Virus record (IMG/VR): IMGVR_UViG_3300011113_000460
Span: 1 to 30,687 of that record
DNA length: 30,687 bases
Reading direction: 5' to 3' (one strand)
From: a virus
Part shown: piece by piece, positions 1,669 to 16,812 of the stretch
Layout: each line of letters opens with the position of its first letter
Numbering within the stretch: the first letter of the stretch is position 1
The notes under the pieces: model-generated
Seen by the model: the letters and a program-made list of their open reading frames with translations, nothing else
Databases searched by the model: none
Told to the model about the DNA's origin: nothing
Position numbers and translations under genes: made by a program

Positions 1669-1690
1669 GGGTGCTCCTCCGCTCAAGGGG

Positions 1691-4615: not shown

Positions 4616-4624
4616 GCCCGCTCC

Positions 4625-6085: not shown

Positions 6086-6125
6086 TGGCCTCTAGGATAA
6101 GGCCGGAGCGCCGGTTCGGCAAGTG

Positions 6126-6148
6126 GCCCCCGGCGCTGGGCCGGGGGC
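6126..6148 (-). terminator. GC-rich hairpin after the 78-aa gene, no U tract
   Basis: Nine-base arms GCCCCCGGC (6126-6134) and GCCGGGGGC (6140-6148) with a 5-nt loop lie 8 nt beyond the stop of the 78-aa gene in its direction of transcription, before terL. No T-run follows on the transcribed strand, so it is not a classic intrinsic terminator. It could slow or partly end transcription, or protect an RNA 3' end. Confidence 0.45.
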
Positions 6149-6155
6149 GGTGGGG

Positions 6156-6392
6156 TCAGGCGTACTGGTTGCGGATCAAGTAGCTCACCAGCTCAACCCG
6201 GCTGCCTTCGCGGTACTTGCCGCCGGTCGGCCACACGTAGAACACGGTCTTGCCGTCGCGGGTCAGCTCGCCGATCTGCTCTTCGGCTTCCTCTTCGCGC
6301 TTGGCGAGGCGGAGGAAGGTGGCGTATTCGCGGTCTTCACGGCTGTCGACGCGGGTGTCGAGGATGGCTTCAAAGGACTTGCGAGCGGTCAT
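6156..6392 (-). CDS. 78-aa protein between the terminase genes (moron-like)
   Basis: ATG at 6392 is chosen because GGAGACACCC precedes it, the same ribosome-binding context used by early genes at 7673 and 7928. A longer frame from 6461 runs through the promoter and is rejected. The protein starts MTARKSFEAILDTRVDSRED, has a charged helix (LAKREEEAEEQIGEL), then a short strand-like part (KTVFYVWPTGGKY). No recognised domain. It has its own -35/-10 promoter, a leader stem-loop and a downstream hairpin, so it appears to be an independently expressed unit inserted between small and large terminase genes. Function unknown. Confidence 0.8.
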   Translation of the reverse strand: MTARKSFEAILDTRVDSREDREYATFLRLAKREEEAEEQIGELTRDGKTVFYVWPTGGKYREGSRVELVSYLIRNQYA

Positions 6393-6411
6393 TGGGTGTC
6401 TCCTGTCTGGC

Positions 6412-6424
6412 GGGGCAGCGCCCC
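6412..6424 (-). promoter_or_regulatory. 5'-leader stem-loop GGGGC-N3-GCCCC
   Basis: Arms GGGGC and GCCCC with loop GCT on the minus strand. It lies 19 nt before the ATG at 6392 and shortly after the predicted transcription start. The same element occurs at 8973, 9741 and 13413 with 18-nt spacing to the start codon. Confidence 0.6.
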
Positions 6425-6440
6425 TCGGTTGGTGACACCA

Positions 6441-6469
6441 GCTATAGGGCCACCGGCCCATGCTGTCAA
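6441..6469 (-). promoter_or_regulatory. Promoter with operator-like inverted repeat in spacer (78-aa gene)
   Basis: On the minus strand: TTGACA (6464-6469), a 17-nt spacer, TATAGC (6441-6446). The spacer holds the perfect inverted repeat GGGCC-GGT-GGCCC (6447-6459) directly against the -10 box. It is the best match to sigma70 consensus in the window. It shares its design with plus-strand promoters at 7611, 8929, 13368 and 16784. Confidence 0.7.
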
Positions 6470-6488
6470 CATTACAAATGCGTAATGC

Positions 6489-6950
6489 TCAGCCCTTTGC
6501 CTTGTCGGCCGCCTGCTGCAGCAGCGCCTCGGTCAGCTCGCGCATGGCGTCGGGCGTGGCGCCCACCGCCTCGGTTTTGATCGCGCCGCCGTCCGCACCG
6601 GCGATGCGCTGCTCCTTCGTCTCGCGCCAGTCCTTCGGAAAGCGCGCCGACATGCTGCGGCTGTACAGCTGCGCGTTGAAGCGGTCGGCCGTCAAGCCCA
6701 GCCGGCCCTGCCGCTCCCACCACGCTTGGCTGAGCTCGCGCGCACGCGCGAAGGCTGCGGCGAACTCTGGCTGCGCCTCTACCCACTTCTCCTCCAGCGT
6801 CTCGCGATGCACACCGATCTCAGCCGCCATCTCGACGATGGACATGCCCTCGCGGCCCATCTCGATCACGCGCTCGCAGTACTCCGGCAGGTACTTGCTC
6901 GGCGCGCCGCCAATGCCCTTGCGGCTCTTCTTCACAGGCTCTTCGCTCAT
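6489..6950 (-). CDS. terS: Putative terminase small subunit
   Basis: 153 aa from ATG 6950; a GTG two codons upstream (6956) is possible but has no room for a Shine-Dalgarno. Residues ~34-58 (GREGMSIVEMAAEIGVHRETLEEKW) form a helix-turn-helix. They are followed by a long helix (AAAFARARELSQAWWERQGRLGL) and the segment RFPKDWRE. This arrangement is typical of small terminase or terminase-like DNA-recognition proteins, which bind the packaging site and recruit TerL. Position upstream of terL fits. The Ala/Gln-rich C-terminus may contact the large subunit. Not certain, because the 78-aa unit separates it from terL. Confidence 0.72.
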   Translation of the reverse strand: MSEEPVKKSRKGIGGAPSKYLPEYCERVIEMGREGMSIVEMAAEIGVHRETLEEKWVEAQPEFAAAFARARELSQAWWERQGRLGLTADRFNAQLYSRSMSARFPKDWRETKEQRIAGADGGAIKTEAVGATPDAMRELTEALLQQAADKAKG

Positions 6951-6972
6951 GCCCACATCCTACCACATAGCC

Positions 6973-7269
6973 CTACGCGCCGCCAGCCCAACGCGACGCG
7001 CCGATGACGCGCCCCTGCCACCCATCCGCCGTGGCGGCGAGCAGCTGCTCCTCTGGCGTCATGTTGCGCAGGGCGATGCCATGCCGGAACGCCGATCTGG
7101 CCAGCGCCGCCAGCAGGTCCCGCGAGCCGCGCACAGCCATGCGGCGGTACTCGAGCTCTGCGTTGCGAGTATCCATCTCGCGGGGCTCCCGGGGCGCCTT
7201 GATCGGCGGCGGCGCACTGACACCCACTGGCTTCTTGCGGCTGCGCTTCGGTTTCGTCTCTGTCGTCAT
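6973..7269 (-). CDS. Hypothetical basic protein at the head of the late leftward operon
   Basis: 98 aa from ATG 7269, with GGAG 9 nt upstream; the same frame continues upstream through the repeat region but with no credible coding character, so the ATG is used. The N-terminus is Lys/Arg/Pro-rich and probably disordered (PKRSRKKPVGV, PPPIKAPREPREMD). A helical part follows from ~38 to 80 (LEYRRMAVRGSRDLLAALARSAFRHGIAL), then TPEEQLLAATADGWQGR. No known domain recognised. It is the first leftward gene after the divergent control region. Confidence 0.7.
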   Translation of the reverse strand: MTTETKPKRSRKKPVGVSAPPPIKAPREPREMDTRNAELEYRRMAVRGSRDLLAALARSAFRHGIALRNMTPEEQLLAATADGWQGRVIGASRWAGGA

Positions 7270-7298
7270 GTGATGTGCTCCATCAACAGTGCGGTTGT

Positions 7299-7328
7299 AC
7301 CCTACAGCACCGCACCGCGCACCGTCAA
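7299..7328 (-). promoter_or_regulatory. Candidate leftward promoter for the packaging/head operon
   Basis: On the minus strand, TTGACG (7323-7328), an 18-nt spacer, TAGGGT (7299-7304). The spacer carries GGTGC units of the neighbouring repeat cluster, not the GGGCC repeat of the early promoters. The -10 box is weak. It lies 30 nt from the ATG at 7269. Confidence 0.4.
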
Positions 7329-7440
7329 CACCGCGCACCACTGCACCACGACGCACCGCGGTGCGCGAGCGTGTCGCAGTAAGGTCTCGAGTCAGCACAC
7401 CGCACCGCCAAAAATTACACCACACCACCACCACGGCTCT

Positions 7441-7487
7441 GCACCACGAGGGGTACCCCCTAAAGGGGGTATCCCCCACCGTGGTGC
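7441..7487. repeat. Nested inverted repeat
   Basis: Outer arms GCACCACG (7441-7448) and CGTGGTGC (7480-7487) enclose inner arms TACCCCC (7454-7460) and GGGGGTA (7465-7471) around TAAA. It sits in the middle of the GCACC repeat cluster between the divergent operons. There is no T-run, so a terminator is unlikely. A protein-binding or origin structure is more plausible. Confidence 0.6.
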
Positions 7488-7509
7488 GTCCTGAGCCTGC
7501 CGCACCACT

Positions 7510-7541
7510 GCACCACCATGCACCACGGTGCATGGTGGTGC
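7510..7541. repeat. 32-bp near-perfect palindrome, 15-bp arms
   Basis: Left arm GCACCACCATGCACC (7510-7524), centre AC, right arm the exact reverse complement (7527-7541). It contains five of the GCACC/GGTGC units and lies 18 bp upstream of the -35 box at 7560, a natural position for an operator or activator site of the rightward promoters. Confidence 0.75.
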
Positions 7542-7559
7542 GTGGTGACAACCGTAGTG

Positions 7560-7588
7560 TTGACCCTCCCTCGTTACACAATTTTAAT
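7560..7588 (+). promoter_or_regulatory. Candidate upstream rightward promoter
   Basis: TTGACC (7560-7565), 17-nt spacer, TTTAAT (7583-7588), next to the AT-richest stretch of the intergenic region. It lacks the GGGCC repeat. It would add a second, tandem start for the small-gene operon at 7673. Confidence 0.45.
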
Positions 7589-7610
7589 GCAGCGACACTC
7601 AACTTTGCTG

Positions 7611-7639
7611 TTGACTGCTGGGTCTGTGGCCCGTACAAG
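7611..7639 (+). promoter_or_regulatory. Rightward early promoter with operator-like spacer repeat
   Basis: TTGACT (7611-7616), 17-nt spacer, TACAAG (7634-7639). The spacer holds GGGTC-TGT-GGCCC (7620-7632), one mismatch from the shared inverted repeat. ATCAGCAAC begins at 7645, about where transcription should start, as at the promoters of 8929 and 13368. Drives the gene at 7673 and probably those up to 8925. Confidence 0.65.
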
Positions 7640-7672
7640 GGGGCATCAGCAACGACCAACCGGAGACACCCA

Positions 7673-7876
7673 ATGACCATCACCAAGCTTCACACTTCCT
7701 GCCCCGCCGCTGGCTTCGCCACTTTCAGCGACGGCAAGTCCTACGACTGGGGGATCAGCGGTTATGACGGCAGCATCATCTTCCACACTGACCGTGGCCC
7801 GAAGGGCTATCGCACGTCGCTGTCGTTCCGCTCAGCCAAGCGCGCCGCCGCCCTCATCGCCGCCCTCAACGCCTGA
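7673..7876 (+). CDS. Hypothetical small early protein (67 aa)
   Basis: ATG at 7673 is chosen over the longer open frame from 7289 because GGAGACACCC precedes it and the upstream part is promoter and repeat DNA. The protein (MTITKLHTSCPAAGFATFSD...) reads like a short beta-strand protein with a C-terminal helix (FRSAKRAAALIAALNA), and no membrane segment. It is the first rightward gene of the early block. No family recognised. Confidence 0.75.
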   Translation: MTITKLHTSCPAAGFATFSDGKSYDWGISGYDGSIIFHTDRGPKGYRTSLSFRSAKRAAALIAALNA

Positions 7877-7886
7877 TCAGCAACCG

Positions 7887-7908
7887 GGGGCGGCCACCGC
7901 GCCGCCCC
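7887..7908 (+). promoter_or_regulatory. Leader/intergenic hairpin
   Basis: Arms GGGGCGGC (7887-7894) and GCCGCCCC (7901-7908) around a 6-nt loop, between the genes at 7673 and 7928 and 19 nt before the ATG. ATCAGCAAC stands just upstream (7876-7884), as at the promoter leaders, so this looks like a longer relative of the GGGGC-N3-GCCCC leader stem-loop. No T-run follows. Confidence 0.5.
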
Positions 7909-7927
7909 ACCCAACCGGAGACACCCA

Positions 7928-8104
7928 ATGACCAAGACCAACCGCGCCGCCATTATCGCCCACGTTGACGCCGAGCGCGTCCGCATCGCCCGTAACGGTG
8001 AGGTGCACGCTTACGGCGTCCTGCCCAACACCAACCAGACCGGCTGGTACTTCGCGGGATGGGCCGACGCCATCCTCGACGCCATTGCCGAGCGCGCCGT
8101 CTGA
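7928..8104 (+). CDS. Hypothetical small early protein (58 aa)
   Basis: ATG at 7928 with the GGAGACACCC context, stop TGA at 8102. It starts MTKTNRAAIIAHVDAERVRI and ends AILDAIAERAV. A strand-rich core (VRIARNGEVHAYGVLP, GWYFAGWADA) with a C-terminal helix. GC-rich third codon positions support coding. The bases from 7911 to 7934 are an exact repeat of those from 7656 to 7679, upstream of the previous gene. Unknown function. Confidence 0.7.
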   Translation: MTKTNRAAIIAHVDAERVRIARNGEVHAYGVLPNTNQTGWYFAGWADAILDAIAERAV

Positions 8105-8129
8105 CACCACACCAACAGGAGACACTGAC

Positions 8130-8303
8130 ATGATCCTCGCAGCAGAATACACCAACGGCAGCAAGACCCGCCCCGCCAAGCTCGACATCGTTGAGATCGT
8201 CGGCGGCGAGCGCGTCAACCGCCGCACCCCCTTCAGCGTCTCTGGCAAGCGCGAGGCGCGCGACATCGCCAAGGCGCTGGGCGCCACCCCTTGGAACTTT
8301 TGA
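8130..8303 (+). CDS. Hypothetical small early protein (57 aa)
   Basis: ATG at 8130 preceded by ACAGGAGACACTGAC. A longer in-frame reading from 7965 overlaps the previous gene and is rejected. Begins MILAAEYTNGSKTRPAKLDI and ends GATPWNF. Short, basic, probably alpha/beta. No family recognised. Confidence 0.7.
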   Translation: MILAAEYTNGSKTRPAKLDIVEIVGGERVNRRTPFSVSGKREARDIAKALGATPWNF

Positions 8304-8318
8304 GAGGAGCACACCAAC

Positions 8319-8567
8319 ATGATCCTCCCCACCCTTAACAGCAACGGCAGCAGCGCGCACGACCTGATCCAGCCGCGCCGCGAGGCCTACGACCTCCTGC
8401 AGGCCGCCATCAAGGCGCTGCAGCGGGTGGCGCCCAACGGCCGGGACTACGCCCACAACGACCAGTGCGTGGCCGATCGGGACGCGCACTACACCCGCCT
8501 CAAGGCGATCCACACCATCGCGGCCGAGCTTGTCGCCGAAGCCGTCGCCATAAAGGAGCAGATTTAA
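8319..8567 (+). CDS. Hypothetical helical early protein (82 aa)
   Basis: ATG at 8319 after GAGAGGAGCACACCAAC. The product is mostly helical (REAYDLLQAAIKALQRVAP, then DRDAHYTRLKAIHTIAAELV). It ends in TAA whose last A is the first base of the next ATG (TAATG). No domain recognised. Could be a small partner-binding protein, as many early phage proteins are; this is only a guess. Confidence 0.75.
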   Translation: MILPTLNSNGSSAHDLIQPRREAYDLLQAAIKALQRVAPNGRDYAHNDQCVADRDAHYTRLKAIHTIAAELVAEAVAIKEQI

Positions 8568-8749
8568 TGAGCACCATGGACGACTACACCGCAACTGGCC
8601 TCGCCGAGGGCTTCATCGAGGCCGACGATGAGCAGCAGATCATCGACGCATGGCAGCACCTGCACGACAGCGGGCTGGCCTACCGGCTGCAGGGCTGGTT
8701 CGGCCGCACCGCGCAGGATCTCATCGCGCAGGGGGTGATCAGCGAATGA
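8567..8749 (+). CDS. Hypothetical acidic early protein (60 aa)
   Basis: ATG at 8567 overlaps the previous stop by one base and has AAGGAGCAGATTT as ribosome-binding site. The sequence starts MSTMDDYTATGLAEGFIEAD and continues with two helices (EQQIIDAWQHLHDSGLAYRL, then AQDLIAQGVISE). Net acidic. A longer in-frame version from 8465 is rejected because it would overlap the previous gene by about 100 nt. Unknown function. Confidence 0.75.
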   Translation: MSTMDDYTATGLAEGFIEADDEQQIIDAWQHLHDSGLAYRLQGWFGRTAQDLIAQGVISE

Positions 8750-8925
8750 GCGCGCAGCACACACCGGGGGCGCGATATGCTGACATGCTCGCCATGCTGC
8801 AGGAGGTCGCCGACTACCTTGACCGCTACGCCGACGTGATCGACGGCGACGACGGCCAGCCCGAGGCGAACGAGGCGCTGCGCCTGTTGACGGCGGTCAC
8901 CGACGTGATCGCCGCTGCGAAATAA
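8746..8925 (+). CDS. Hypothetical helical early protein (59 aa)
   Basis: ATG at 8746 overlaps the previous stop (ATGA). The product has one long helix (ADMLAMLQEVADYLDRYADV), a short acidic loop, and a second helix (EANEALRLLTAVTDVIAAAK). It is the last gene before the promoter at 8929. I associate this helix-loop-helix build with small accessory phage proteins of unknown role. Confidence 0.7.
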   Translation: MSAQHTPGARYADMLAMLQEVADYLDRYADVIDGDDGQPEANEALRLLTAVTDVIAAAK

Positions 8926-8928
8926 CTG

Positions 8929-8957
8929 TTGACAGCACGGGCCGCAGGCCCTAGTCT
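8929..8957 (+). promoter_or_regulatory. Early promoter with operator-like spacer repeat
   Basis: TTGACA (8929-8934), 17-nt spacer, TAGTCT (8952-8957). The spacer holds the perfect inverted repeat GGGCC-GCA-GGCCC (8939-8951). ATCAGCAAC follows at 8964-8972, about 7 nt after the -10 box. Starts the transcription unit at 9004. Confidence 0.68.
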
Positions 8958-8972
8958 ACACATATCAGCAAC

Positions 8973-8985
8973 GGGGCGCTGCCCC
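8973..8985 (+). promoter_or_regulatory. 5'-leader stem-loop GGGGC-GCT-GCCCC
   Basis: A 5-bp stem with 3-nt loop directly after ATCAGCAAC, near the predicted RNA 5' end. It is exactly 18 nt before the ATG at 9004. Same element as at 6412, 9741 and 13413. Confidence 0.6.
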
Positions 8986-9003
8986 ACGACACGGAGACCC
9001 AGC

Positions 9004-9213
9004 ATGCAGATCGTCATCAACACCGACTACGACCTGACCCCCGCCGGTAAGCGCGCCGCCCGCGTCGTGCAGACCTCGCGCGGTGGCCGCCAGCTCCGCT
9101 GGTACGTCGGCGGTCGGCTGTACTGGAAGGGCGCTCCGTCTGAGCACACTTCCGAGTGGCTCGCAGGCGAGGGCGCCGCCCACCACCTGCCGCAACCGTG
9201 GTCGGCGCTCTGA
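9004..9213 (+). CDS. Hypothetical small protein (69 aa)
   Basis: ATG at 9004 with CACGGAGACCCAGC upstream. Starts MQIVINTDYDLTPAGKRAAR and has a strand-rich middle (RQLRWYVGGRLYWKG). Basic. It follows its own promoter and leader stem-loop. No family recognised. Confidence 0.72.
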   Translation: MQIVINTDYDLTPAGKRAARVVQTSRGGRQLRWYVGGRLYWKGAPSEHTSEWLAGEGAAHHLPQPWSAL

Positions 9214-9245
9214 CAGCGCCGCCACTCAACAGGGAGACCGACAAC

Positions 9246-9464
9246 ATGAGCCTCGAACAGGTACGATCACTGCTCCGCGCCGCACTTCTTCAATTGGACA
9301 ACGCCACGGGCACAACAGGTCTTGACCGACCCGCATGGCGTATCGCAGACGCGGGGCTGCTACTCCGCGAGTTCTGCGAAAGTCGTGGCATCACAGGCAT
9401 TGGCATTGACGAGCCCACCGGACGCGGAGCCACACTGCCTAACCAACAAGGAGACGACCTATGA
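9246..9464 (+). CDS. Hypothetical small protein (72 aa)
   Basis: ATG at 9246 after AGGGAGACCGACAAC. Helical first half (MSLEQVRSLLRAALLQLDNA), a second helix (ADAGLLLREFCESRGI) and a Gly/Pro-rich tail. Stop overlaps the next start (ATGA). The third-base GC bias is weaker than in the replication genes. Function unknown. Confidence 0.72.
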   Translation: MSLEQVRSLLRAALLQLDNATGTTGLDRPAWRIADAGLLLREFCESRGITGIGIDEPTGRGATLPNQQGDDL

Positions 9465-9715
9465 CCGTCAATCGCAGCAACGACCTCAAAATACTACTGC
9501 ACGCACTGAGCGCCGCTCAGCGCGTGGTCGAGGGACTCGATATTGACTTGCGCGATTTGCGCCGCAACCTTGAAGACGCCACGCGCATCCCCGCGGACGA
9601 CTTCTGCCCCCACGTCCTTGTTAGCGACGCTGACCAATTGCAGATATCTGCTGATAAGGCGTTTTCGCGTACGCAGCACCTGATCGGACTTCTCGTCTCG
9701 ATAAGCCGGACGTGA
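9461..9715 (+). CDS. Hypothetical helical protein (84 aa)
   Basis: ATG at 9461 overlaps the stop of the previous gene; AAGGAGACGACCT lies upstream. Three helices are likely (LKILLHALSAAQRVVEGLD, LRDLRRNLEDATRI, SRTQHLIGLLVSISRT). The last is hydrophobic but too short and polar to call a membrane anchor. Its codon use is less GC-biased than its neighbours. No family recognised. Confidence 0.72.
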   Translation: MTVNRSNDLKILLHALSAAQRVVEGLDIDLRDLRRNLEDATRIPADDFCPHVLVSDADQLQISADKAFSRTQHLIGLLVSISRT

Positions 9716-9740
9716 TCAACGAATAGCCACTCAACCAACC

Positions 9741-9753
9741 GGGGCACTGCCCC
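9741..9753 (+). promoter_or_regulatory. 5'-leader stem-loop GGGGC-ACT-GCCCC
   Basis: Same stem-loop as in the promoter leaders, again exactly 18 nt before the next ATG (9772). No convincing -35/-10 pair is visible just upstream, so here it is probably internal to a longer transcript or marks a lost promoter. Confidence 0.55.
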
Positions 9754-9771
9754 ACGTCACGGAGACGACCA

Positions 9772-9936
9772 ATGTTCACCCACGACAACACCGACTATGC
9801 GTATACCACCGATGAGCTCGCTACGCTGAACGAGGCGCTTGCCGCCCGCATTGCGGACGGCGAGCAGGTCAAGGGCGCCGCTGACGCCATCAACAACCTG
9901 TGGTTCGACGGCGCAACCGTCGCCGACTTGATCTAA
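9772..9936 (+). CDS. Hypothetical acidic small protein (54 aa)
   Basis: ATG at 9772 with GGAGACGACCA upstream, TAA at 9934. Starts MFTHDNTDYAYTTDELATLN. Helical, Ala/Asp-rich (EALAARIADGEQVKGAADAI). No family recognised. Confidence 0.7.
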   Translation: MFTHDNTDYAYTTDELATLNEALAARIADGEQVKGAADAINNLWFDGATVADLI

Positions 9937-9948
9937 GGGGTACGCACC

Positions 9949-10356
9949 ATGACCAGCCGCCGCGCCGTCATCCACAACCGACGCTTCTACTGGCAGTATG
10001 ACGACGGGCGCCGTGCGCCTGTGCAGGTCACGGAGCGGCTGCTGGCGCAGGTGCGCCAGTCGTCGCATCAGGTGCAGGTACAGGCCAAGGCTGCGCAGCG
10101 CGCCGTGGAGGAGGTCGACGCCCCGCCGCGTCGCACCAACCACCCGCCCCGGCCGCCCGGCACCGCGCCGACGCTGCCGGCGGTCGGCCGTGACATCGGC
10201 GACAAGACGCTTGGCGAGCTGGCGTTCGACCACGGCTACGGCAGCGTCTATCGCTTTAGTGAGGCGCTGCGCAAACACCGCCGCGCCATCTATGACGCCG
10301 CCCGCGCCAACGGCCGGGCGCGGGGCCGCGCCAACCTGATGACGCCAACGCCGTGA
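9949..10356 (+). CDS. Hypothetical basic protein (135 aa)
   Basis: ATG at 9949 follows a GGGG run at short distance, so its Shine-Dalgarno is modest. N-terminus MTSRRAVIHNRRFYWQYDDG. A Pro/Arg-rich linker lies around 60-75 (PPRRTNHPPRPPG). The C-terminal helix region (GDKTLGELAFDHGYGSVYRF, SEALRKHRRAIYDAARANGR) looks like a small DNA-binding helical fold; I cannot name it. The gene ends 2 nt before the stop of the convergent lysis operon, with no terminator between them. Confidence 0.72.
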   Translation: MTSRRAVIHNRRFYWQYDDGRRAPVQVTERLLAQVRQSSHQVQVQAKAAQRAVEEVDAPPRRTNHPPRPPGTAPTLPAVGRDIGDKTLGELAFDHGYGSVYRFSEALRKHRRAIYDAARANGRARGRANLMTPTP

Positions 10357-10358
10357 CG

Positions 10359-10577
10359 CTATCGTGGGCAGTCCTTTTCGCACACGCACAGCCACGCCGA
10401 GTTGTGCGCCTCGACGGCCTTCACCGTCTCGGCGGTGTCGGCTCTGCTGTCATAACCGATAGGCTTGGCGATGCGGCAGTAGTCACTGACCACCAGCGGC
10501 GCGGTCGAACCGCTTACGCAGGCGCTCGTCGCGCACAGGATCGGCAGTAGCCACAGCCGCTTCAGCTTGATCAACAC
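10359..10577 (-). CDS. Rz1: Rz1-like outer-membrane lipoprotein (o-spanin)
   Basis: 72 aa from GTG 10577 (a TTG one codon later is also possible). It has a short Lys-rich N-terminus, a hydrophobic stretch (LWLLPILC) and a lipobox-like ATSAC with Cys at ~20, where signal peptidase II would cut and lipidate. The mature part contains SDYCRIAKPIGYDS and EAHNSAWLCVC. The Cys-xx-Ala-Lys-Pro-Ile...His-Asn-x-x-Trp pattern recurs in phage Rz1-like proteins as I know them. The start lies inside the Rz-like gene in another frame, the classic Rz/Rz1 nesting. Role: with Rz, fuses inner and outer membranes at the end of lysis. Confidence 0.8.
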   Translation of the reverse strand: MLIKLKRLWLLPILCATSACVSGSTAPLVVSDYCRIAKPIGYDSRADTAETVKAVEAHNSAWLCVCEKDCPR

Positions 10578-10701
10578 GGGCCTCGACCTCCTCGATGGCG
10601 TCCAGCGCGGCCTCCTTGCGCCCCTGCTCGATGAGCGCGCGCTGTTTCCACCACGTCAATATGGTAGCGAGCACGCTCAGCAGGGACGCGAAGAGCTTCA
10701 C
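10483..10701 (-). CDS. Rz: Rz-like inner-membrane spanin (i-spanin)
   Basis: 72 aa from GTG 10701, with AAGGA upstream inside the end of the holin gene. An N-terminal membrane helix (LFASLLSVLATILTWW, ~3-18) is followed by a charged coiled coil (EGRKEAALDAIEEVEARVDQ-like region, ~25-65). This is the i-spanin topology: one anchor and a periplasmic coiled coil. It is shorter than lambda Rz. The Rz1-like gene overlaps its last third in a different frame. Confidence 0.75.
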   Translation of the reverse strand: MKLFASLLSVLATILTWWKQRALIEQGRKEAALDAIEEVEARVDQAEAAVATADPVRDERLRKRFDRAAGGQ

Positions 10702-10705
10702 GCTG

Positions 10706-10873
10706 TCAGTCCTTGTGCTCAGCCATCACGACGGCGGCGAGACCGGCAACGGCCATGACCACCGCGGAGATGGCCTGATACAGCGGCTCGGCGATGCCGA
10801 CAGCCGCGGCCAGACCGGCGAAGCCGGCGTAGGTGCTCGGCTCGCGCAAACGCTTCAAAACGAAATCAACCAT
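10706..10873 (-). CDS. Holin (55 aa)
   Basis: ATG at 10873 with a very strong GAGGAGGA Shine-Dalgarno. MVDFVLKRLREPSTYAGFAG, then two hydrophobic segments (~15-28 and ~35-51, ISAVVMAVAGLAAVVMA) joined by a short turn, and a charged tail AEHKD. Two membrane segments and small size fit a class II-type holin. The REPSTYAG start is one I associate with small phage holins. It sits between endolysin and spanin genes, so it should form the inner-membrane lesion that releases or activates the endolysin. Confidence 0.82.
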   Translation of the reverse strand: MVDFVLKRLREPSTYAGFAGLAAAVGIAEPLYQAISAVVMAVAGLAAVVMAEHKD

Positions 10874-10895
10874 AGTCAGTCCTCCTCAGTGAAAA

Positions 10896-11387
10896 TCAGC
10901 CCTCGCCCGATGTCTCTGGCGCAGCGGCGGCAGCCCACGGTGCCTGCAGGGCCCACGCCACGCCCTTCGGCCAGCGCAGCGCGATGAGCCTGTCTCGCTT
11001 AAACCGGCGCACATTGACAGCGTCGCCTTGATTGCCGCCCAATATGTTCAGCGAGCCGTCGCGGTTGACGCTGTCGACGAAGCCAACGTGGCCGCCGCCC
11101 TTGCGCTCGAACACGGCGACGGCGCCCAGCGGCGGCCGCGTGGCGACCATCGACAGCCCCTCACCCCACGTCGCCCACGCCTTGGCGCGGATGGCGATGG
11201 GCGGCGGCTTCAGGCCGGCCTGCGTGACGCAGTGCGCCGCGAACAGCCCGCACCACGGCACACTGTCGGCACCGTAGGCGATGCCCAGCACGCGCGCGCC
11301 GAGGCGGTTGCCCCAGCTCATGATGACGGGGTTGTTGCCGGCTCCGGGCACCTCACGGGTGCCGATCAGGCTGTGCGCCTCAGTCAT
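10896..11387 (-). CDS. Endolysin, CHAP/NlpC-like peptidoglycan hydrolase
   Basis: 163 aa from ATG 11387. A longer reading (up to 186 aa from 11456) exists, but homologues I recall begin close to the IGTREVPG motif, so the short form is preferred. Residues 9-20 (GTREVPGAGNNP), the catalytic Cys46 in VPWCGLFAAHC, His100 in GGGHVGFV, and Asn119 in GGNQGD form the Cys-His-Asn set of the TIGR02594-type CHAP-like family. It cleaves peptidoglycan as amidase or endopeptidase. No signal peptide, so it needs the holin. The C-terminus is a short Ala-rich tail. Its start overlaps the end of the upstream 66-aa gene by 8 nt. Confidence 0.88.
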   Translation of the reverse strand: MTEAHSLIGTREVPGAGNNPVIMSWGNRLGARVLGIAYGADSVPWCGLFAAHCVTQAGLKPPPIAIRAKAWATWGEGLSMVATRPPLGAVAVFERKGGGHVGFVDSVNRDGSLNILGGNQGDAVNVRRFKRDRLIALRWPKGVAWALQAPWAAAAAPETSGEG

Positions 11388-11580
11388 CCACCGCAATGTT
11401 CGTCTCCCTGCTGCGTCGCAGCGCGTCATTATACTCTTTCTCGCGCTTGGCGACAATCGCGGCGAACTGGGTGTAGACGTTCTCGACGGCGCGGCTCAGG
11501 GCGATGTCGCGCGTCTCTATCGCGACGTGCAGATCCTCGAGTGCCTGACGTACCTCACTGTTTTTGTGTTCCGCCTTCAC
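11380..11580 (-). CDS. Small coiled-coil protein in the lysis operon (66 aa)
   Basis: GTG at 11580 overlaps the phosphoesterase stop (GTGA) and has AGGAGACGACAGC upstream. MKAEHKNSEVRQALEDLHVA and the following residues form one long charged helix with no membrane segment. Ends NIAVDD, overlapping the endolysin start. Its role in lysis, if any, is unknown. Confidence 0.7.
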   Translation of the reverse strand: MKAEHKNSEVRQALEDLHVAIETRDIALSRAVENVYTQFAAIVAKREKEYNDALRRSRETNIAVDD

Positions 11581-12596
11581 GCTGTCGTCTCCTGCTCGGC
11601 TAGATATTCCGCGTGATCGTCAACGACGACCTGCCCGCGCCACATCGCGCGACCCTCGATCACCTCGCAGATCTCCGGCGGCAGCAGCCGCCCGTCCTTG
11701 AAGGTGAGCACGGCGAAGCCGGCGCAGGCCGGGCTATAGCCGTTCTCGGCATACTCGAACTGCGGCCCGGTGGGCTCGGCCAGCGTGCCGGTCTGCACAC
11801 CCCAGCGGCGGCCGCGATAGTCGCCCCAAGGCTTGACCTCGAGGACGTGCGTGTGGCCCGTGACCATGCTGACGCCGCTCTTCAGCGCGTTGTTGTAGGC
11901 GGCGTGCACGCCGTTCGCCTGCCGGTGCTTGACCATGACCGGGTGGCGGCTCTTGCGGTTGAGCCAGCACGACCACGTCAACTCCCACTCGGGGAAGTGA
12001 TCCGCGAGGCGCAGGCCGGGCAGCCCCTCGTACTGGTGCACCTGCGTGGCGAGGCGGCGCTCGAAATTGGTTTCGTGGTTGCCGACCGTGTAGATCGACC
12101 GCACGCCCGTGCGCGCCGGTTTGGCCGCCATGCGCCAGCGGTGCATAGCGTCACTGACACAGTCCAGCTCCTCTTTGACCGTCGGTCGGCGCTGCCAGCC
12201 GAACGGATCGTGGCGGTTGGTGCTCGCGCCGTCCATCCAGTCGCCGTTGGCGATGAGCATGCGCACGCTCTGGCCAAGGTCGGCGGTCACCCCGAGCAGC
12301 GCCTTCATGGCGGTGGTGTCGGGCCCCGGCCAGATGTGCGCGTCGGATCCGACGACGACGATGCCGTCGCTGACATCGCAGTTTATTACTTTTTTGTAAG
12401 TCGATTGGCTGATGGGCGACGTGGACGCCCTGACGGTGGGCAACTCTATGCCCTTCGCCGCCAACGTGTTGCGCCGGGAATAGATGTTGCGCTCAGATGT
12501 GCCAAGCTCTCGGGCCACGGCGGCCGGGGAGAAGTTGCAGCGTTCCCAAGCCTCTATCAGAACGTCGTCGGGGATCGTGTCTTTGCGCGCGGCCAT
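11577..12596 (-). CDS. HTH-metallophosphoesterase fusion protein
   Basis: 339 aa from ATG 12596, with AAGGGC upstream; a longer frame to 12737 runs through promoter DNA and is rejected. Residues ~24-46 (SPAAVARELGTSERNIYSRR) form a helix-turn-helix. From ~78 a calcineurin-like phosphoesterase follows with all metal-binding motifs: GSDAHIW (Asp85, His87), NGDWMDG (Asp119), GNHE (Asn173, His174), His224 and GHTH (247-250). Members of this family hydrolyse phosphomono- or diesters with two metal ions, sometimes on nucleic acids. Proteins of this build occur in many phage genomes, but their substrate is not known to me. Here it is first in the lysis operon. Confidence 0.85.
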   Translation of the reverse strand: MAARKDTIPDDVLIEAWERCNFSPAAVARELGTSERNIYSRRNTLAAKGIELPTVRASTSPISQSTYKKVINCDVSDGIVVVGSDAHIWPGPDTTAMKALLGVTADLGQSVRMLIANGDWMDGASTNRHDPFGWQRRPTVKEELDCVSDAMHRWRMAAKPARTGVRSIYTVGNHETNFERRLATQVHQYEGLPGLRLADHFPEWELTWSCWLNRKSRHPVMVKHRQANGVHAAYNNALKSGVSMVTGHTHVLEVKPWGDYRGRRWGVQTGTLAEPTGPQFEYAENGYSPACAGFAVLTFKDGRLLPPEICEVIEGRAMWRGQVVVDDHAEYLAEQETTA

Positions 12597-12631
12597 AAGA
12601 GCCCTTCTTGCGAAACGGCGTGCTGCTCTCC

Positions 12632-12660
12632 CCCTAGCACGGAAAATGTTTTTTACGCAA
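12632..12660 (-). promoter_or_regulatory. Candidate promoter of the lysis operon
   Basis: Minus strand TTGCGT (12655-12660), 17-nt A/T-rich spacer, CTAGGG (12632-12637), about 36 nt before the ATG at 12596. Weak -10 box. The TAGGG core resembles the leftward candidate at 7299. Low confidence. Confidence 0.3.
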
Positions 12661-12685
12661 CGACATGAGCGCGCACACAAAACGC

Positions 12686-12718
12686 TTGACGGAGGCGGCC
12701 CAGAGGCCCCATGCGTAG
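12686..12718 (+). promoter_or_regulatory. Degenerate member of the early promoter family
   Basis: TTGACG (12686-12691) with GGCCC-AGA-GGCCC (12697-12709) behind it, the same spacing as in the other promoters but with an imperfect repeat and no good -10 box (CATGCGTAGG region). Located 30 nt before the HTH gene at 12749. Confidence 0.4.
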
Positions 12719-12748
12719 GGCCGCTGACCACAGCCAAGGAGAGATTTA

Positions 12749-12976
12749 GTGACAGTACCTATGACACCAGAGGAAGTGAACTTCGCGCGCCTTCGACTAG
12801 GCATGACCCTGCGCGAACTGGCCGAGGCCCTGCGCATGGGCACGGACGGGCGCCGCGCCGTGCGGCGTTGGGAAACGGGCGACCGGCCGATCAGCGGCCC
12901 CGCGTCCGTTGCGATTGAGGCGATGTTGGGCGGCTGGCGCCCGGCGCATATCATTGAAGCTGGAGAATTGGCATGA
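12749..12976 (+). CDS. Small HTH transcriptional regulator (XRE-like)
   Basis: 75 aa from GTG 12749, chosen because AAGGAGAG lies 5 nt upstream; an ATG at 12761 is possible. TPEEVNFARLRLGMTLRELA, then ALRMG...RAVRRWETGDRPISGP is the lambda-repressor-like helix-turn-helix with the usual Arg-Trp-Glu-x-Gly after the recognition helix. It has no dimerisation or cleavage domain, so it is Cro-sized. Its position just beside the lysis/early divergence and a degenerate GGGCC promoter makes it a candidate regulator of the early promoter family; that is inference. Stop overlaps the next start (ATGA). Confidence 0.82.
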   Translation: MTVPMTPEEVNFARLRLGMTLRELAEALRMGTDGRRAVRRWETGDRPISGPASVAIEAMLGGWRPAHIIEAGELA

Positions 12977-13359
12977 CGACATTCGACGACACGCGCCTCG
13001 AGTGGCGCAAGATCCCATTGCGCGATGTGCTGCCGCCCGGTGAGGTGCGTTACCACCTCGGTCGTGCGGGTTACGTCACGCTGGGTGACCTGCTCAACGC
13101 GACCGAGGAAGAGCTGGCGGCCAACGTCTACAGCGTCGGCCCTATCCGCGCCCGCAACCTGCGTCGCAGCGCCCTCGCCGCCGCCAAGGCGGCAACGCCG
13201 CAAGCGCCCCCGGCCGGTGAGACCGCCCTAATCGCGCCCGACTGGCCCGGCCCAGTTGAGATACGCTGGTTCGGGCCCGAGATGCTCGTCGCCGCGGTGG
13301 CGCTGGCCGGCGTTTTCTTGATCGGCCTGTCGCTGGGCTTCGGGCTGCTGCGCCTGTAA
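12973..13359 (+). CDS. Helix-hairpin-helix-like domain joined to a membrane segment
   Basis: 128 aa from ATG 12973 (GGAGAATTGGC upstream). Residues ~20-70 (GEVRYHLGRAGYVTLGDLLN...SVGPIRARNLRRSALAAAK) resemble the tandem helix-hairpin-helix of the RNA polymerase alpha C-terminal domain. A Pro/Ala linker follows. Residues ~103-126 (MLVAAVALAGVFLIGLSLGF) are one membrane helix near the C-terminus. A nucleic-acid-type fold tied to the membrane is unusual. The gene is coupled to the HTH regulator upstream. TAA abuts the next promoter. Function unknown. Confidence 0.75.
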   Translation: MTTFDDTRLEWRKIPLRDVLPPGEVRYHLGRAGYVTLGDLLNATEEELAANVYSVGPIRARNLRRSALAAAKAATPQAPPAGETALIAPDWPGPVEIRWFGPEMLVAAVALAGVFLIGLSLGFGLLRL

Positions 13360-13367
13360 AAAAGTGC

Positions 13368-13397
13368 TTGACGGGTAGGGCCTGTGGCCCGTATAGA
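13368..13397 (+). promoter_or_regulatory. Early promoter with operator-like spacer repeat
   Basis: TTGACG (13368-13373), 18-nt spacer, TATAGA (13392-13397). Spacer repeat GGGCC-TGT-GGCCC (13378-13390) is perfect. An A-tract (13356-13363) lies just upstream of the -35 box and may act as an UP element. ATCAGCAAC follows at 13404-13412. Confidence 0.7.
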
Positions 13398-13412
13398 TAC
13401 GCCATCAGCAAC

Positions 13413-13425
13413 GGGGCACTGCCCC
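13413..13425 (+). promoter_or_regulatory. 5'-leader stem-loop GGGGC-ACT-GCCCC
   Basis: Immediately after ATCAGCAAC and exactly 18 nt before the ATG at 13444; same arrangement as at 8973. Confidence 0.6.
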
Positions 13426-13443
13426 ACACGCAGGAGCGGCACC

Positions 13444-13674
13444 ATGGACTACTACAACATCGACGCCGAGAAGGCCCGCCAGAGCTACAAGCGCCTGAAG
13501 GGCGGGCAGGTGCGCATCGTGCACCGCCACCTGCTCAAGGCGGTGGATCGGTACATGACTGCGTGCCTCATCGATGACGATGACGACGGCGTCAACGTGC
13601 TGGCTTTGCGTCAGCTGTCGGCGATTTACGCCCTCGTCGCTGTCAAACGCGAGCTGCAGGCTGCAGGTTACTAA
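13444..13674 (+). CDS. Hypothetical protein (76 aa)
   Basis: ATG at 13444 with GCAGGAGCGGCACC upstream; a longer frame from 13384 overlaps the promoter and leader and is rejected. Starts MDYYNIDAEKARQSYKRLKG, has a run of five Asp in the middle (CLIDDDDDGVNVLA) and a C-terminal helix (LSAIYALVAVKRELQAAGY). First gene of its promoter unit. No family recognised. Confidence 0.75.
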   Translation: MDYYNIDAEKARQSYKRLKGGQVRIVHRHLLKAVDRYMTACLIDDDDDGVNVLALRQLSAIYALVAVKRELQAAGY

Positions 13675-13686
13675 GGAGCACACGAC

Positions 13687-13971
13687 ATGATTTTCGACAT
13701 TGAACATGATCTGGTCGATCAGGGCGGCGTGGACGTAGTCGAGTACTACGTCACCGCCGAGGATACCGACACCGGGCGCGTCCTGCGCCATGCCATGGCG
13801 TTCCGCAGCCACGAACTGCTGCTCGACCCCGACACGGGCGACGCTGAGATCGTCGAGCGGCCGGCAGGCGAGGCCGAGAGCGAAGTGCAGGCGCTGCTCG
13901 CCGCCGTCCGCAAGCGTGGCGCAATCAACACTGCATGGTGGTACGAACTGGTACCGGGAGAAATCGCATGA
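13687..13971 (+). CDS. Hypothetical acidic protein (94 aa)
   Basis: ATG at 13687 with AAGGAGCACACGAC. Strand-rich first half (VVEYYVTAEDTDTGRVLRH), acidic middle (PDTGDAEIVERPAGEAESE), helix at ~70 and end WWYELVPGEIA. Stop overlaps the next ATG (ATGA). Very acidic small proteins are common among phage inhibitors that mimic DNA, but nothing specific supports that here. Confidence 0.75.
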   Translation: MIFDIEHDLVDQGGVDVVEYYVTAEDTDTGRVLRHAMAFRSHELLLDPDTGDAEIVERPAGEAESEVQALLAAVRKRGAINTAWWYELVPGEIA

Positions 13972-14207
13972 AGGCAGTCATCCCAGAGGGCCTGACCATC
14001 GGGGAACTGGTGGACGAGGTCATCAACAATGCGGCCGTAAACGAGCGGAAGTTGGCTGTGAGCTACATTCGCAATGTGGCGACAGAGCTACCGGATTGGC
14101 AGCAATTCCCGCCCAATTTGGTCGGCCTAGTCACCGACCTGCTGCTCGACATTTCCGATGAGATTGAGGCGTGTGAACATTTTAGCGACGGGGAGACAAT
14201 GCAATGA
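13968..14207 (+). CDS. Hypothetical acidic helical protein (79 aa)
   Basis: ATG at 13968 overlapping the previous stop, coupled translation. MKAVIPEGLTIGELVDEVIN, then a long helix; ends EACEHFSDGETMQ. No membrane segment. Stop overlaps the next ATG. No family recognised. Confidence 0.72.
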   Translation: MKAVIPEGLTIGELVDEVINNAAVNERKLAVSYIRNVATELPDWQQFPPNLVGLVTDLLLDISDEIEACEHFSDGETMQ

Positions 14208-14407
14208 GCCTGAACCCAAATGACATCCTGCGCGAGGCAGCCGCCGTGTTCGCCGAGCACGACAGGCATGATCGCGAACTGCAGCGCCTTGACGCCGAAC
14301 TGCGGCAACTGTGCAGCCAGTTTGGCGAGGCGACACGCCGCTTTGGCTACGCCCCAATCCACCTACGCCGCGCCGTTGAGGCGCGCTACGGCGAAATCGC
14401 GGCCTGA
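14204..14407 (+). CDS. Hypothetical helical protein (67 aa)
   Basis: ATG at 14204 (GGGGAGACAATGCA upstream). One long charged helix (ILREAAAVFAEHDRHDRELQ followed by RLDAELRQLCSQFGEATRR), probably a coiled coil, then a short basic end. Last gene before the operator-like repeat at 14431. Confidence 0.72.
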   Translation: MSLNPNDILREAAAVFAEHDRHDRELQRLDAELRQLCSQFGEATRRFGYAPIHLRRAVEARYGEIAA

Positions 14408-14430
14408 CTTTTTTGTAAGGTGACGGGGCG

Positions 14431-14458
14431 CTTGCATCAACCGCTCGGTTGTTGCAAG
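14431..14458 (+). promoter_or_regulatory. 28-bp inverted repeat, likely operator of the Cro-like gene
   Basis: Arms CTTGCATCAACCG (14431-14443) and CGGTTGTTGCAAG (14446-14458) with a 2-bp centre; one mismatched pair. It contains TTGCAT at the place of a -35 box, so the repeat again covers a promoter spacer, although no good -10 box is seen. An ACTTTTTTGTAAGG stretch lies just upstream. It ends 27 nt before the ATG at 14486. Confidence 0.6.
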
Positions 14459-14485
14459 TTGCCTGCCCGTCCGAGGAGCACACTC

Positions 14486-14725
14486 ATGTCAGCCCCACTG
14501 CGCCGCGCCGTCGAGTACGCCGGCGGCGTTACCCAGCTTGCCCGCACTCTTGGCGTCAGTCAGCAGGCAGTACACAAGTGGCTGCGGCGCGGCTGGGTGT
14601 CGCCTGAACGTGCCGCGGAGTTGTGCGGCCTTTACGGCATCCCCGCGGCTGAACTGTTGCGTCCCGAACTGCGCCGCCTGCTGGCCATCACGGACAGTGC
14701 CGCAGCCAATGTCGATTTGATCTGA
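14486..14725 (+). CDS. YdaS/Cro-like HTH regulator
   Basis: 79 aa from ATG 14486 with GAGGAGCACACTC. Residues ~13-45 (GGVTQLARTLGVSQQAVHKWLRRG-type) are a Cro/YdaS-like helix-turn-helix, followed by WVSPERAAELCGLYGIPAAE, which is the family's usual second half. It probably binds the inverted repeat right upstream and controls itself and the replication genes that follow 11 nt downstream. The binding site assignment is inference. Confidence 0.85.
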   Translation: MSAPLRRAVEYAGGVTQLARTLGVSQQAVHKWLRRGWVSPERAAELCGLYGIPAAELLRPELRRLLAITDSAAANVDLI

Positions 14726-14736
14726 GCGAGGGGGCG

Positions 14737-16776
14737 GTGGCAAACGTGCAACGCATTACACCCGAAGTACGGGACATCCACGTCCCGGCGCCCCTGCGCG
14801 ACCTTCCGATCTTCCTCTGCTGGCGGCTGGAGCCGCAGTACGAGGGTGATCCCAAGCCTCTGAAGACGCCGTACTACCCCAACGGGGGTAAGCGCTACGG
14901 GACGCAAGGCAGCCCAGAGGATCGCTCTAAGTTGACGACGTACGCGCTGGCCAAGGCGCAGGCCGCCAAGCGCGGCATGACCGGTGTCGGCATCGCCCTG
15001 CTCGAGGGATATGACATCGTGGCAGTGGACGTGGACAACTGCGTGCACGACGGCAAGGTGCCGACTGAAATCCTCGACGCCGTCGGCATGACCTACGCCG
15101 AATATAGCCCCAGCGGTCGCGGCGTACGCGCCCTGCTGCGCGGCAACGTGGGCAACCACAAGTCGCTGACGACGGCTACCGACTACGGCTTTGAGGTCTT
15201 CAGCACGACCGGCTACGTGACGCTGACGGGCAACATGCTCGACCACGTCGACCTTGTCGGCGTTGAGGACACGCTGGCGCGCGTCTCGCCGGCGCTTGAG
15301 GCGCTCTGCGAGCGCCGCTTCGGGGTGCGCAAGGCGGAGGGCGGTTCTCAGGACGCCGTGCTCGACTTCTTTGGCGGCACGCTGCCGCCGCTGGGCCTGA
15401 CCGTTGATCGCATGGAGGAGCTGCTCGGCAAGCTCGACCCGGACATGGGCCGCGAAGAGTGGATCCGCGTCGGCATGGCCCTGCACCACGAGACACAGGG
15501 CGACGACACTGGCTTCGAGCTCTGGGACGAGTGGTCTGCCGGCGGCAGCACGTACCCCAGTACCGAGGCGCTGCGTGGCCAGTGGGAGAGCTTTACGCGC
15601 CGCGATGGCAGCGGTCGCGCGCAGGTGACCATGGCCAGCGTGATGAAGATGGCGAAGGCGACCGGTGACCGGCCGGCGGAAAAGATAAACGTCGAAGAGC
15701 TTTCGCGCGTTGCCGCAGAGGCCACCGCGTCTACCGCGCCTTACGACGGACGCTTCCCGGTCATTAGCGCAGGTGAGCTGGCGCGGCGCAAGCCGGTCAA
15801 CTGGCTGATCAAGGGTGTGCTGCCGCAGGCGGATCTGGTCGTGCTGTTTGGCGCGAGCGGCAGCGGCAAAAGTTTTGTCGGCATCGATCTGATGGCATCG
15901 ATTGCCCGCGGCGTGGCGTGGCGCGAGCGGCGCGTGAAGAGGGGCCGGGCCGTTATCATCGCCGCAGAAGGCGGAGGCGGCATGGGCAAGCGCATTGAGG
16001 CGTACTGCCGCCACCACAACATCGACGCGGACGACCTCGATATCGGCATCATCACCGCGCCGCCTGATTTCATGCAGAGCGACAACATCACTGATCTGGT
16101 GCGCGCCATCAGCGCGAGCGGCGGTGCCGACGTGATCATGGTCGACACGTTTGCGCAGGTGACCCCCGGGGCGAACGAAAACGCCGGCGAAGATATGGGC
16201 AGGGCACTGGCCAACGCCCGCGCTCTGAGCAACGCCACAGGCGCTGTGGTCGTGCTGGTGCACCACGCCGGCAAGGACACGAGCAAGGGCAGCCGCGGCT
16301 GGTCGGGCATCAAGGCCGCCGCGGATGCCGAGATCGAGGTGATACGCCACGAGGACAGTCCGGTGCGCGAGATACGCATCAGCAAGATGAAAGATGGCGA
16401 TGACGGCTTGCACTGGGCATTCCGCCTCGAGGTGCTCGACGTCGGTGTGGACGATGATGGCGACACCATCACAAGCTGCGTGGCTGTCGAAGCCGAGATG
16501 CCGCCGGCTGAGATCAAAAGTAATAACAATCGTAAGTACGGCCGGGTGGAAACGCACGTCATAGAGATGATCAGCGAGCACGTCGATCCGCTTGCGCCAG
16601 ACGCGGACATGGAAGAGGTCATCCGCTTCTGCGTCGACGGCATGCCCAAGCCCGAGCCCGGCACCCGCGACGTGCGCAAGCAGCACGTGCAGCGTGCCTT
16701 GCAGTCGCTGTGCAAGGGCAACGATGCGCCGATTGCGATTGAGCACGGGAAGGTGATATTTTTGTCACCCAACTAA
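14737..16776 (+). CDS. Primase-helicase: PrimPol + PriCT + RepA-type ATPase
   Basis: 679 aa from GTG 14737, with GAGGGGG upstream. Residues ~20-200 are a bifunctional primase/polymerase (archaeo-eukaryotic primase fold): the acidic pair is in VAVDVDNC (Asp98, Asp100), with YSPSGRGVRALL (~123-134) and FEVFSTTGYVTLTG after it. Residues ~225-305 (PDMGREEWIRVGMALHHE...) are a PriCT-2-type domain. From ~355 a RecA-fold RepA/AAA_25 helicase follows: Walker A FGASGSGKSF (371-380), Walker B VIMVDTF (466-472), sensor VHHAGKD (508-514). Together it primes and unwinds DNA at the replication fork, so the phage has its own initiation enzyme. It heads the replication module. Confidence 0.92.
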   Translation: MANVQRITPEVRDIHVPAPLRDLPIFLCWRLEPQYEGDPKPLKTPYYPNGGKRYGTQGSPEDRSKLTTYALAKAQAAKRGMTGVGIALLEGYDIVAVDVDNCVHDGKVPTEILDAVGMTYAEYSPSGRGVRALLRGNVGNHKSLTTATDYGFEVFSTTGYVTLTGNMLDHVDLVGVEDTLARVSPALEALCERRFGVRKAEGGSQDAVLDFFGGTLPPLGLTVDRMEELLGKLDPDMGREEWIRVGMALHHETQGDDTGFELWDEWSAGGSTYPSTEALRGQWESFTRRDGSGRAQVTMASVMKMAKATGDRPAEKINVEELSRVAAEATASTAPYDGRFPVISAGELARRKPVNWLIKGVLPQADLVVLFGASGSGKSFVGIDLMASIARGVAWRERRVKRGRAVIIAAEGGGGMGKRIEAYCRHHNIDADDLDIGIITAPPDFMQSDNITDLVRAISASGGADVIMVDTFAQVTPGANENAGEDMGRALANARALSNATGAVVVLVHHAGKDTSKGSRGWSGIKAAADAEIEVIRHEDSPVREIRISKMKDGDDGLHWAFRLEVLDVGVDDDGDTITSCVAVEAEMPPAEIKSNNNRKYGRVETHVIEMISEHVDPLAPDADMEEVIRFCVDGMPKPEPGTRDVRKQHVQRALQSLCKGNDAPIAIEHGKVIFLSPN

Positions 16777-16783
16777 ATAGCGC

Positions 16784-16812
16784 TTGCAATGCTGGGCCAG
16801 AGACCCTACATA
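16784..16812 (+). promoter_or_regulatory. Early promoter with operator-like spacer repeat
   Basis: TTGCAA (16784-16789), 17-nt spacer, TACATA (16807-16812). Spacer repeat GGGCC-AGA-GACCC (16794-16806), one mismatch. No GGGGC leader stem-loop follows. Drives the recombination genes from 16844. Confidence 0.6.

Follow-up and report, generated by a model that had tools for sequence, protein, structure and literature searches.

The virus record IMGVR_UViG_3300011113_000460 of IMG/VR, whose entire 30,687 bases we analysed and refer to here as the window, is a tailed phage as judged by matches to PHROGs (terminase, portal, primase/helicase, exonuclease, SSB, DNA polymerase, and helicase), and its nearest named relatives by primase are the Caulobacter phages RW, KcrB, RLK, and GB2A (50% identity). 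Dispersed over both of its strands lie five promoters, plus one degenerate copy, in which an inverted repeat of the form GGGCCN3GGCCC (IR1) occupies the space between the -35 and -10 boxes; the degenerate copy stands ahead of a gene for a small helix-turn-helix (HTH) protein at 12749, and three of the promoters carry a second inverted repeat, GGGGC-RCT-GCCCC (IR2), in their leaders (Table 1). An initial annotation of the sequence had listed the sites at 6469(-), 7611, 8929, 13368, and 16784 together with a degenerate one at 12686, all of which we find as described; the leader repeat was absent from it. The phages collection contained no near match to the window and only weak matches to a typed promoter, and our literature search did not find a paper on the promoters of Caulobacter phage RW.

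The spacer arrangement is far more frequent than in shuffled sequence. The promoter module (scanned as TTG[AC], GGGCCN3GGCCC with at most one change, and TA at a spacing of 16-18) occurs five times in the window, compared with a mean of 0.007 and a maximum of 1 in 300 dinucleotide-preserving shuffles, and the exact GGGCCN3GGCCC 13-mer occurs three times against a mean of 0.10 in 300 dinucleotide shuffles. All six repeats are intergenic and overlap none of the 27 listed genes. The remark of the initial annotation that no such site precedes the late leftward genes is partly right, but not strictly true, since the promoter at 6469(-) points leftward at gene 6392-6156, with TerL and portal beyond it; gene 6392 has a homologue in the early region of the relative L070 (loci are given here as L numbers and records as G numbers). 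In promoters of MerR-type activators the dyad lies within an over-long spacer of 19-20 bp; the spacers in the window are of normal length (17-18), and an activator of this type is therefore not required. A pattern scan of viral contigs for TTGACN4GGGCCN3GGCCC returned 22 stretches, by eye only some of them promoter-like and others in coding-like DNA, and a scan of genome contigs with A2 returned 35 pattern stretches, with no relatives among them. We found nothing on the spacer motif in the literature, which is no proof of absence.

Table 1. Promoters, leader hairpins, and associated genes in the window.
Feature	Position	Strand	Details
Promoter with spacer dyad	6441..6469 (IR1 6447-6459)	-	TTGACA-GCAT-GGGCCGGTGGCCC-TATAGC; drives gene 6392-6156
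Promoter with spacer dyad	7611..7639 (IR1 7620-7632, one mismatch)	+	TTGACT-GCT-GGGTCTGTGGCCC-G-TACAAG; without IR2; drives gene 7673
Promoter with spacer dyad	8929..8957 (IR1 8939-8951)	+	TTGACA-GCAC-GGGCCGCAGGCCC-TAGTCT; drives gene 9004
Promoter with spacer dyad	13368..13397 (IR1 13378-13390)	+	TTGACG-GGTA-GGGCCTGTGGCCC-G-TATAGA; drives gene 13444
Promoter with spacer dyad	16784..16812 (IR1 16794-16806, one mismatch)	+	TTGCAA-TGCT-GGGCCAGAGACCC-TACATA; without IR2; drives gene 16844
Degenerate promoter/operator	12686..12715 (inverted repeat 12697-12709)	+	TTGACG-GAGGC-GGCCCAGAGGCCC-CATGCG, poor -10; ahead of HTH gene 12749
Leader hairpin IR2	6412..6424	-	GGGGCGCTGCCCC; promoter 6469(-)
Leader hairpin IR2	8973..8985	+	GGGGCGCTGCCCC; promoter 8929
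Leader hairpin IR2	13413..13425	+	GGGGCACTGCCCC; promoter 13368
IR2 hairpin without promoter	9741..9753	+	Ahead of gene 9772; L145 homologue has promoter, IR1, and hairpin
HTH protein, 75 amino acids	12749..12976	+	Aca3/Aca10/MqsA-like; proposed regulator of the promoter set
Small gene, 78 amino acids	6156..6392	-	L070 homologue (79% identity) has TTGCAA-type promoter

Outside the window, the spacer dyad goes with the family of the 12749 protein and not with the core genome. Homologues of this protein occur in 7 of 28 records, all outside the primase relatives (0 of 13), and a 31-sequence profile gave HTH matches in 5 of 22 records and in 0 of 12 primase relatives. A search with the HTH protein itself reached 43 viral loci, and 45 of 52 HTH hits were used after we had dropped four second contig copies, one gene truncated at the end of its contig, and two HTHs that were the second of their locus. 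Upstream of 25 of these 45 genes (21 of 38 distinct proteins), within 1.3 kb and on the same strand, lies a promoter whose spacer holds a GG..CC dyad of 5-N3-5 form, vs. 0 in reversed sequence, 3 on the opposite strand, and 4 downstream. Usually the promoter is followed by the leader, then by small gene(s), and then by the HTH, as in acr-aca operons, here in a wider HTH family. Two named phages provide examples, Paracoccus phage Pkon1 (TTGACA-ACTA-GCGCCATTGGCGC-TAAATC) and Pseudanabaena phage Pan3, and the same scan found no clear case in Paracoccus phage Psul1, Aeromonas phage AsC4_1, or Bradyrhizobium phage ppBeUSDA76-2. One phage (L138 and L136, record G011) has two family HTHs and six exact GGGCCN3GGCCC sites, several site copies lying directly ahead of one HTH gene; and L005, of the same record (G010) as a family HTH, carries six promoters at 3100-9137 whose quasi-palindrome occurs in either orientation (GGTCATTCTGTCC-like and GGACAGAATGACC-like), together with one GGGCC site.

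Among 80 fetched loci with related primases the GGGCC-type spacer repeat was not found, and a scan of these loci for spacer dyads of any kind gave 66 vs. 57 in reversed sequence; the design is thus not common by descent of the core genome. Many early genes of these relatives keep the same promoter frame and the same CAGCAAC leader with a different dyad of the TTGCAA-N-TTG type. Four genes behind GGGCC-type promoters in the window have homologues behind TTGCAA-type ones: 6392(-) in L070, 7673 in L063 (43% identity), 9004 in L049 and L077 (88%), and 13444 in L053 (65%). Three of the four have the leader hairpin in the window, and their relatives' leaders are without it. With the genes and the leader start the same and the dyad different, it is the operator that has changed. 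The relatives L044-L077 and L104 have a phage-wide operator set of their own, TTGCAA(T/C)-N5-(A/G)TTGCA overlapping the -35 box, before many early genes. The presumed transcript start has a CATCAGCAAC-like sequence (window positions 8967, 13407, and 7645) that is kept in phages with differing operators and genomes.

Within the phages that carry the HTH family the operator varies and keeps its symmetry. IR1 stays 5-N3-5 with outer ends G and C, its inner bases varying on both sides; counting G-T as a pair, 94.5% of 145 cells are paired vs. 84.6% after shuffling (0 of 500 shuffles as high), and 12 cells are changed on both sides, with two-sided change at three of the five positions. Half-sites across these phages are GGGCC, GGACC, GGAAC, GGCCC, GCGCC, and GGACA, and the recognition-helix residue that immediately precedes the W/Y, aligned by eye with Arg101 of MqsA, is R with GGGCC, GGACC, and GGACA, Y with GGAAC (L153 and L154), and K with GGCCC (L150 and L183) and GCGCC (L193 and L232). 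The L150 protein (K, GGCCC) is 83% identical to that of L030 (R, GGGCC). Extra scans for K-type HTHs mainly added L205 (HKW; TAGCG-TAG-CGCTA), L232 (RKW; GCGCCATTGGCAC), and L204 (RKW), the last with no convincing promoter found. In this small sample the rule for K appears consistent, with L205 and L204 neither proving nor breaking the pairing of operator and residue; the operator thus seems to change partly in step with a single residue of the recognition helix.

By profile, the 12749 protein is assigned to HTH_3 in Pfam and appears to be kin to known Aca proteins: searching the PDB with profile A1 placed Aca3 first (9vt3, E = 3.7e-8), followed by a designed protein and by 7xi5 (E = 1.5e-5), which a Foldseek table gives as Aca10 and which was also the top-ranked Foldseek match. 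Its AlphaFold2 model is a confident HTH (mean predicted local distance difference test score 91), and the structure aligner gave Z values of 10.1 for a Shewanella protein, 9.9 for HigA2, 9.5 for Aca10, 9.1 for Aca2, 8.8 for MqsA (3fmy), and 8.3 for Aca1, values of a size common among HTH folds. The two-domain architecture of the MqsA antitoxin was not found; the protein scored 21.7 against the NCBIfam model TIGR03830, whose cutoff is 61.8, and matched its HTH part only. Profile and modelled fold together place the protein near the Aca repressors.

We consider it fairly likely that the 12749 protein is Aca-like and represses its own gene along with a multi-operon regulon, producing an early burst of transcription followed by shut-off. 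Drawing on the sites, their placement, the symmetry-keeping changes, the linkage to the HTH family, the partial covariation with the recognition helix, and the fold, we infer dimerisation, binding, repression, and timing as follows. IR1 would be a DNA operator bound by a dimer of the 75-amino-acid protein, and the bound dimer would span the interval from -35 to -10 and exclude the host RNA polymerase. On entry, with the repressor absent, the five or six strong promoters would fire together through the host sigma-70 polymerase; the HTH protein, made behind the degenerate copy of the site, would then accumulate and turn off the whole set, itself included. The initial annotation's suggestion that one protein covers these promoters and switches them all together gains support from the core-promoter position, the 17-18 spacing, the dyad symmetry, and the HTH-family linkage.

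Several observations weigh against this proposal. No such promoter lies within 1.3 kb of 20 of the 45 HTH loci, some of which are distant homologues, and in the window the HTH gene's own promoter combines a degenerate operator with a poor -10 box. A family HTH was not detected in G012 (a 28.8-kb record with five exact GGGCC repeats, most of them in promoters) or in G014 (a 13-kb record that carries the promoters), and no HTH match was found in G003, G004, and G007, the records closest to the window, which also carry the promoters; the alignment of these three to the window ends before the place of the HTH gene. The rows behind the covariation counts are related to one another. The model gave no Foldseek match at E 0.001, as is usual for an HTH of 75 amino acids, and a single-sequence phmmer search against the PDB gave nothing convincing.

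We weighed three other ways to account for the spacer repeat. The initial annotation had named two candidate binders, the proteins at 12749 and 14486, and we regard it as unlikely that the operator is read by the latter, a Cro/YdaS-like core regulator beside the primase whose specificity would have moved from TTGCAA to GGGCC in the lineage of the window. This protein is indeed conserved beside the primase of the relatives (43 loci in addition to that of the window), and the window version has a distinct recognition helix (SQQAVHKW vs. mostly SHQAVYxW); however, its homologues occur there whatever the operator and therefore leave the operator unexplained, 12749-type HTHs are found in unrelated phages that share the operator, and of the two candidates we favour the 12749 protein. 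Moreover, gene 14486 is preceded by a different, 28-bp palindrome of its own (CTTGCATCAACCG-CT-CGGTTGTTGCAAG, 14431-14458), likely the operator of that gene itself. Quite improbable, in our view, is recognition by a host repressor whose operator the phage has copied: the promoters resemble ordinary sigma-70 sites and G012 has several of them with no family HTH detected, but from phage to phage the operator varies along with an HTH that the phage itself encodes, and other operators are used by close relatives. We give still less credence to a repeat free of any regulator, in which a strong promoter cassette has spread by recombination and its symmetry reflects DNA shape; promoter and leader are indeed copied as a single cassette, yet the dyad symmetry outlasts two-sided change across unrelated phages, and the same cassette in relatives carries a wholly different dyad.

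Repression by the 12749 protein would have its closest counterpart in the acr-aca operons, in which IR1 lies invariably within the core promoter according to the excerpted text of PMC9410906; an inverted repeat so placed is present in the window and at 25 of the 45 homologue loci. The small HTH autorepressor, the core-promoter IR1, the sometimes present second inverted repeat, and the strong early promoters are likewise shared with the systems in the excerpted parts of PMC9410906 and PMC9410881. Unlike acr-aca, five or six dispersed promoters on both strands of one phage carry the same operator here, half-sites vary within one HTH family, and no known acr gene was identified, no Acr library search having been made. 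In SIRV2 and other archaeal viruses, many small early genes dispersed over one genome have in common a strong promoter with an Aca8-linked regulatory sequence (11 of 25 accessory genes in SIRV2), for which a repressor of the Aca type has been proposed; that system differs in its archaeal promoter elements and winged HTH, and a spacer dyad and leader hairpin are not described in the excerpts of that source (PMC11065993). MqsA is reported to bind ACCT-N3-AGGT through Asn97 and Arg101, with the N3 geometry of IR1 (excerpts of PMC5422877 and PMC4901048), and resembles the present case in its palindrome with a 3-bp centre and its similar fold, but carries a further domain and is partnered by a toxin. 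As for a lambda-type lysogenic immunity repressor, which would belong to a temperate phage, no integrase was found among the window open reading frames scanned with PHROGs, a scan that covered part of the frames of a possibly incomplete record.

In the window, IR2 lies after the transcript start and ahead of the ribosome site, directly 3' of ATCAGCAAC in the leaders of 8929 and 13368. The hairpin ahead of gene 9772 has probably lost its promoter, given the L145 homologue with promoter, IR1, and hairpin; the use of this promoterless leader as a sign of RNA action was dropped for the same reason. In 23 distinct leaders 115 of 115 cells are paired (0 of 500 shuffles as high), with two-sided changes at four of the five pairs, and in 26 modules selected for having an IR2 with at most one mismatch, non-pairs occur in 8 IR1 and 0 IR2 (two G-U in IR2). 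The search behind these had found 68 modules (8 in the reversed control, not de-duplicated), a count that includes chance hits and some L034 sites in two registers. Leaders that fold at -6 kcal/mol or below number 37 of 45 in HTH phages, about four of these 45 rows not being real modules, vs. 1 of 22 behind TTGCAA promoters; z-scores of the 45 leaders relative to shuffled sequence are weak (mean -0.70), since most of each leader is the hairpin itself, and the comparison with TTGCAA leaders is the informative one. Rfam gave no matches in the window at gathering scores. Several IR1 promoters are without IR2 (L155-L157, L160, L140, and 7611 and 16784 of the window), leaving the operator as the constant part.

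We see the chances as evenly balanced that IR2 is either a second DNA operator or a plain stabiliser of the 5' end of the mRNA, and not an RNA target of the HTH protein: some IR1 promoters do without it, and known acr-aca promoters often have a second inverted repeat up- or downstream (excerpted text of PMC9410906). Against a DNA operator stand the intact pairing of IR2 in the chosen modules, an IR1-IR2 distance that ranges from 26 to 39 and so gives no fixed helical face, and the loci L163/L167 and L165/L171, where the HTH is nearly identical and the IR2 arm differs with pairing kept; no point of our evidence counts against the plain stabiliser. Pairing, variable distance, and arm change at a near-constant HTH point to a structured RNA more than to a second DNA operator, and IR2 is probably a structured RNA element that adds control or stability at the mRNA. 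That it is also a target of the 12749 protein is a guess. It would imply that for the same genes one HTH protein binds the DNA of the spacer operator as well as the mRNA at the leader hairpin, as an Aca2-like dual switch serving many operons, with sets of operators and hairpins swapped as a block between otherwise close relatives, which we regard as possible but rather doubtful. Work on Aca2 from 2024 reportedly describes an autorepressor that binds DNA and RNA, and its operon is said to combine a promoter IR1 with a leader stem-loop ahead of the start codon; Aca2 differs in belonging to another HTH family, in its longer protein, and in its single operon. Our literature search found nothing on RNA binding by Aca proteins.

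The components are of known kinds; what is new is that a bacterial phage has the proposed regulon dispersed over its genome, that operator and helix residue change across the family, and that leaders carry a hairpin. Nothing was found in the literature on multi-promoter Aca sets in bacterial phages. If the proposed regulon is right, the repeat labels a coherent set of small early genes, and the logic that found anti-defence genes in archaeal viruses would extend to bacterial phages of metagenomes. In its R, K, and Y variants with differing half-sites, the HTH family would offer a natural set of matched proteins and operators for studying how repressor specificity changes, and the leader hairpin would make dual DNA/RNA control directly testable beyond Aca2.

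Further elements were seen around these leaders and elsewhere in the window. L034 and L137 contain repeated promoter cassettes with eight leader-hairpin copies, most behind a GGGGC-type spacer dyad and an extra upstream arm mirroring it (CGCGCCCCAT ... ATGGGGCGCG). A larger hairpin after CAGCAAC (CCGGGGGCGGCCACCGCGCCGCCCC; window 7880-7913) stands ahead of gene 7928 and is also found in L047 and L053. At 1240-1686 (-) lies a GroES-like co-chaperonin (phrog_3188). Finally, a long intergenic stretch ahead of the first early promoter (7290-7560) abounds in GCACCAC-type repeats, relatives have TGCATGCTGCAG-type repeats near the matching place, and this repeat-rich stretch is possibly an origin.

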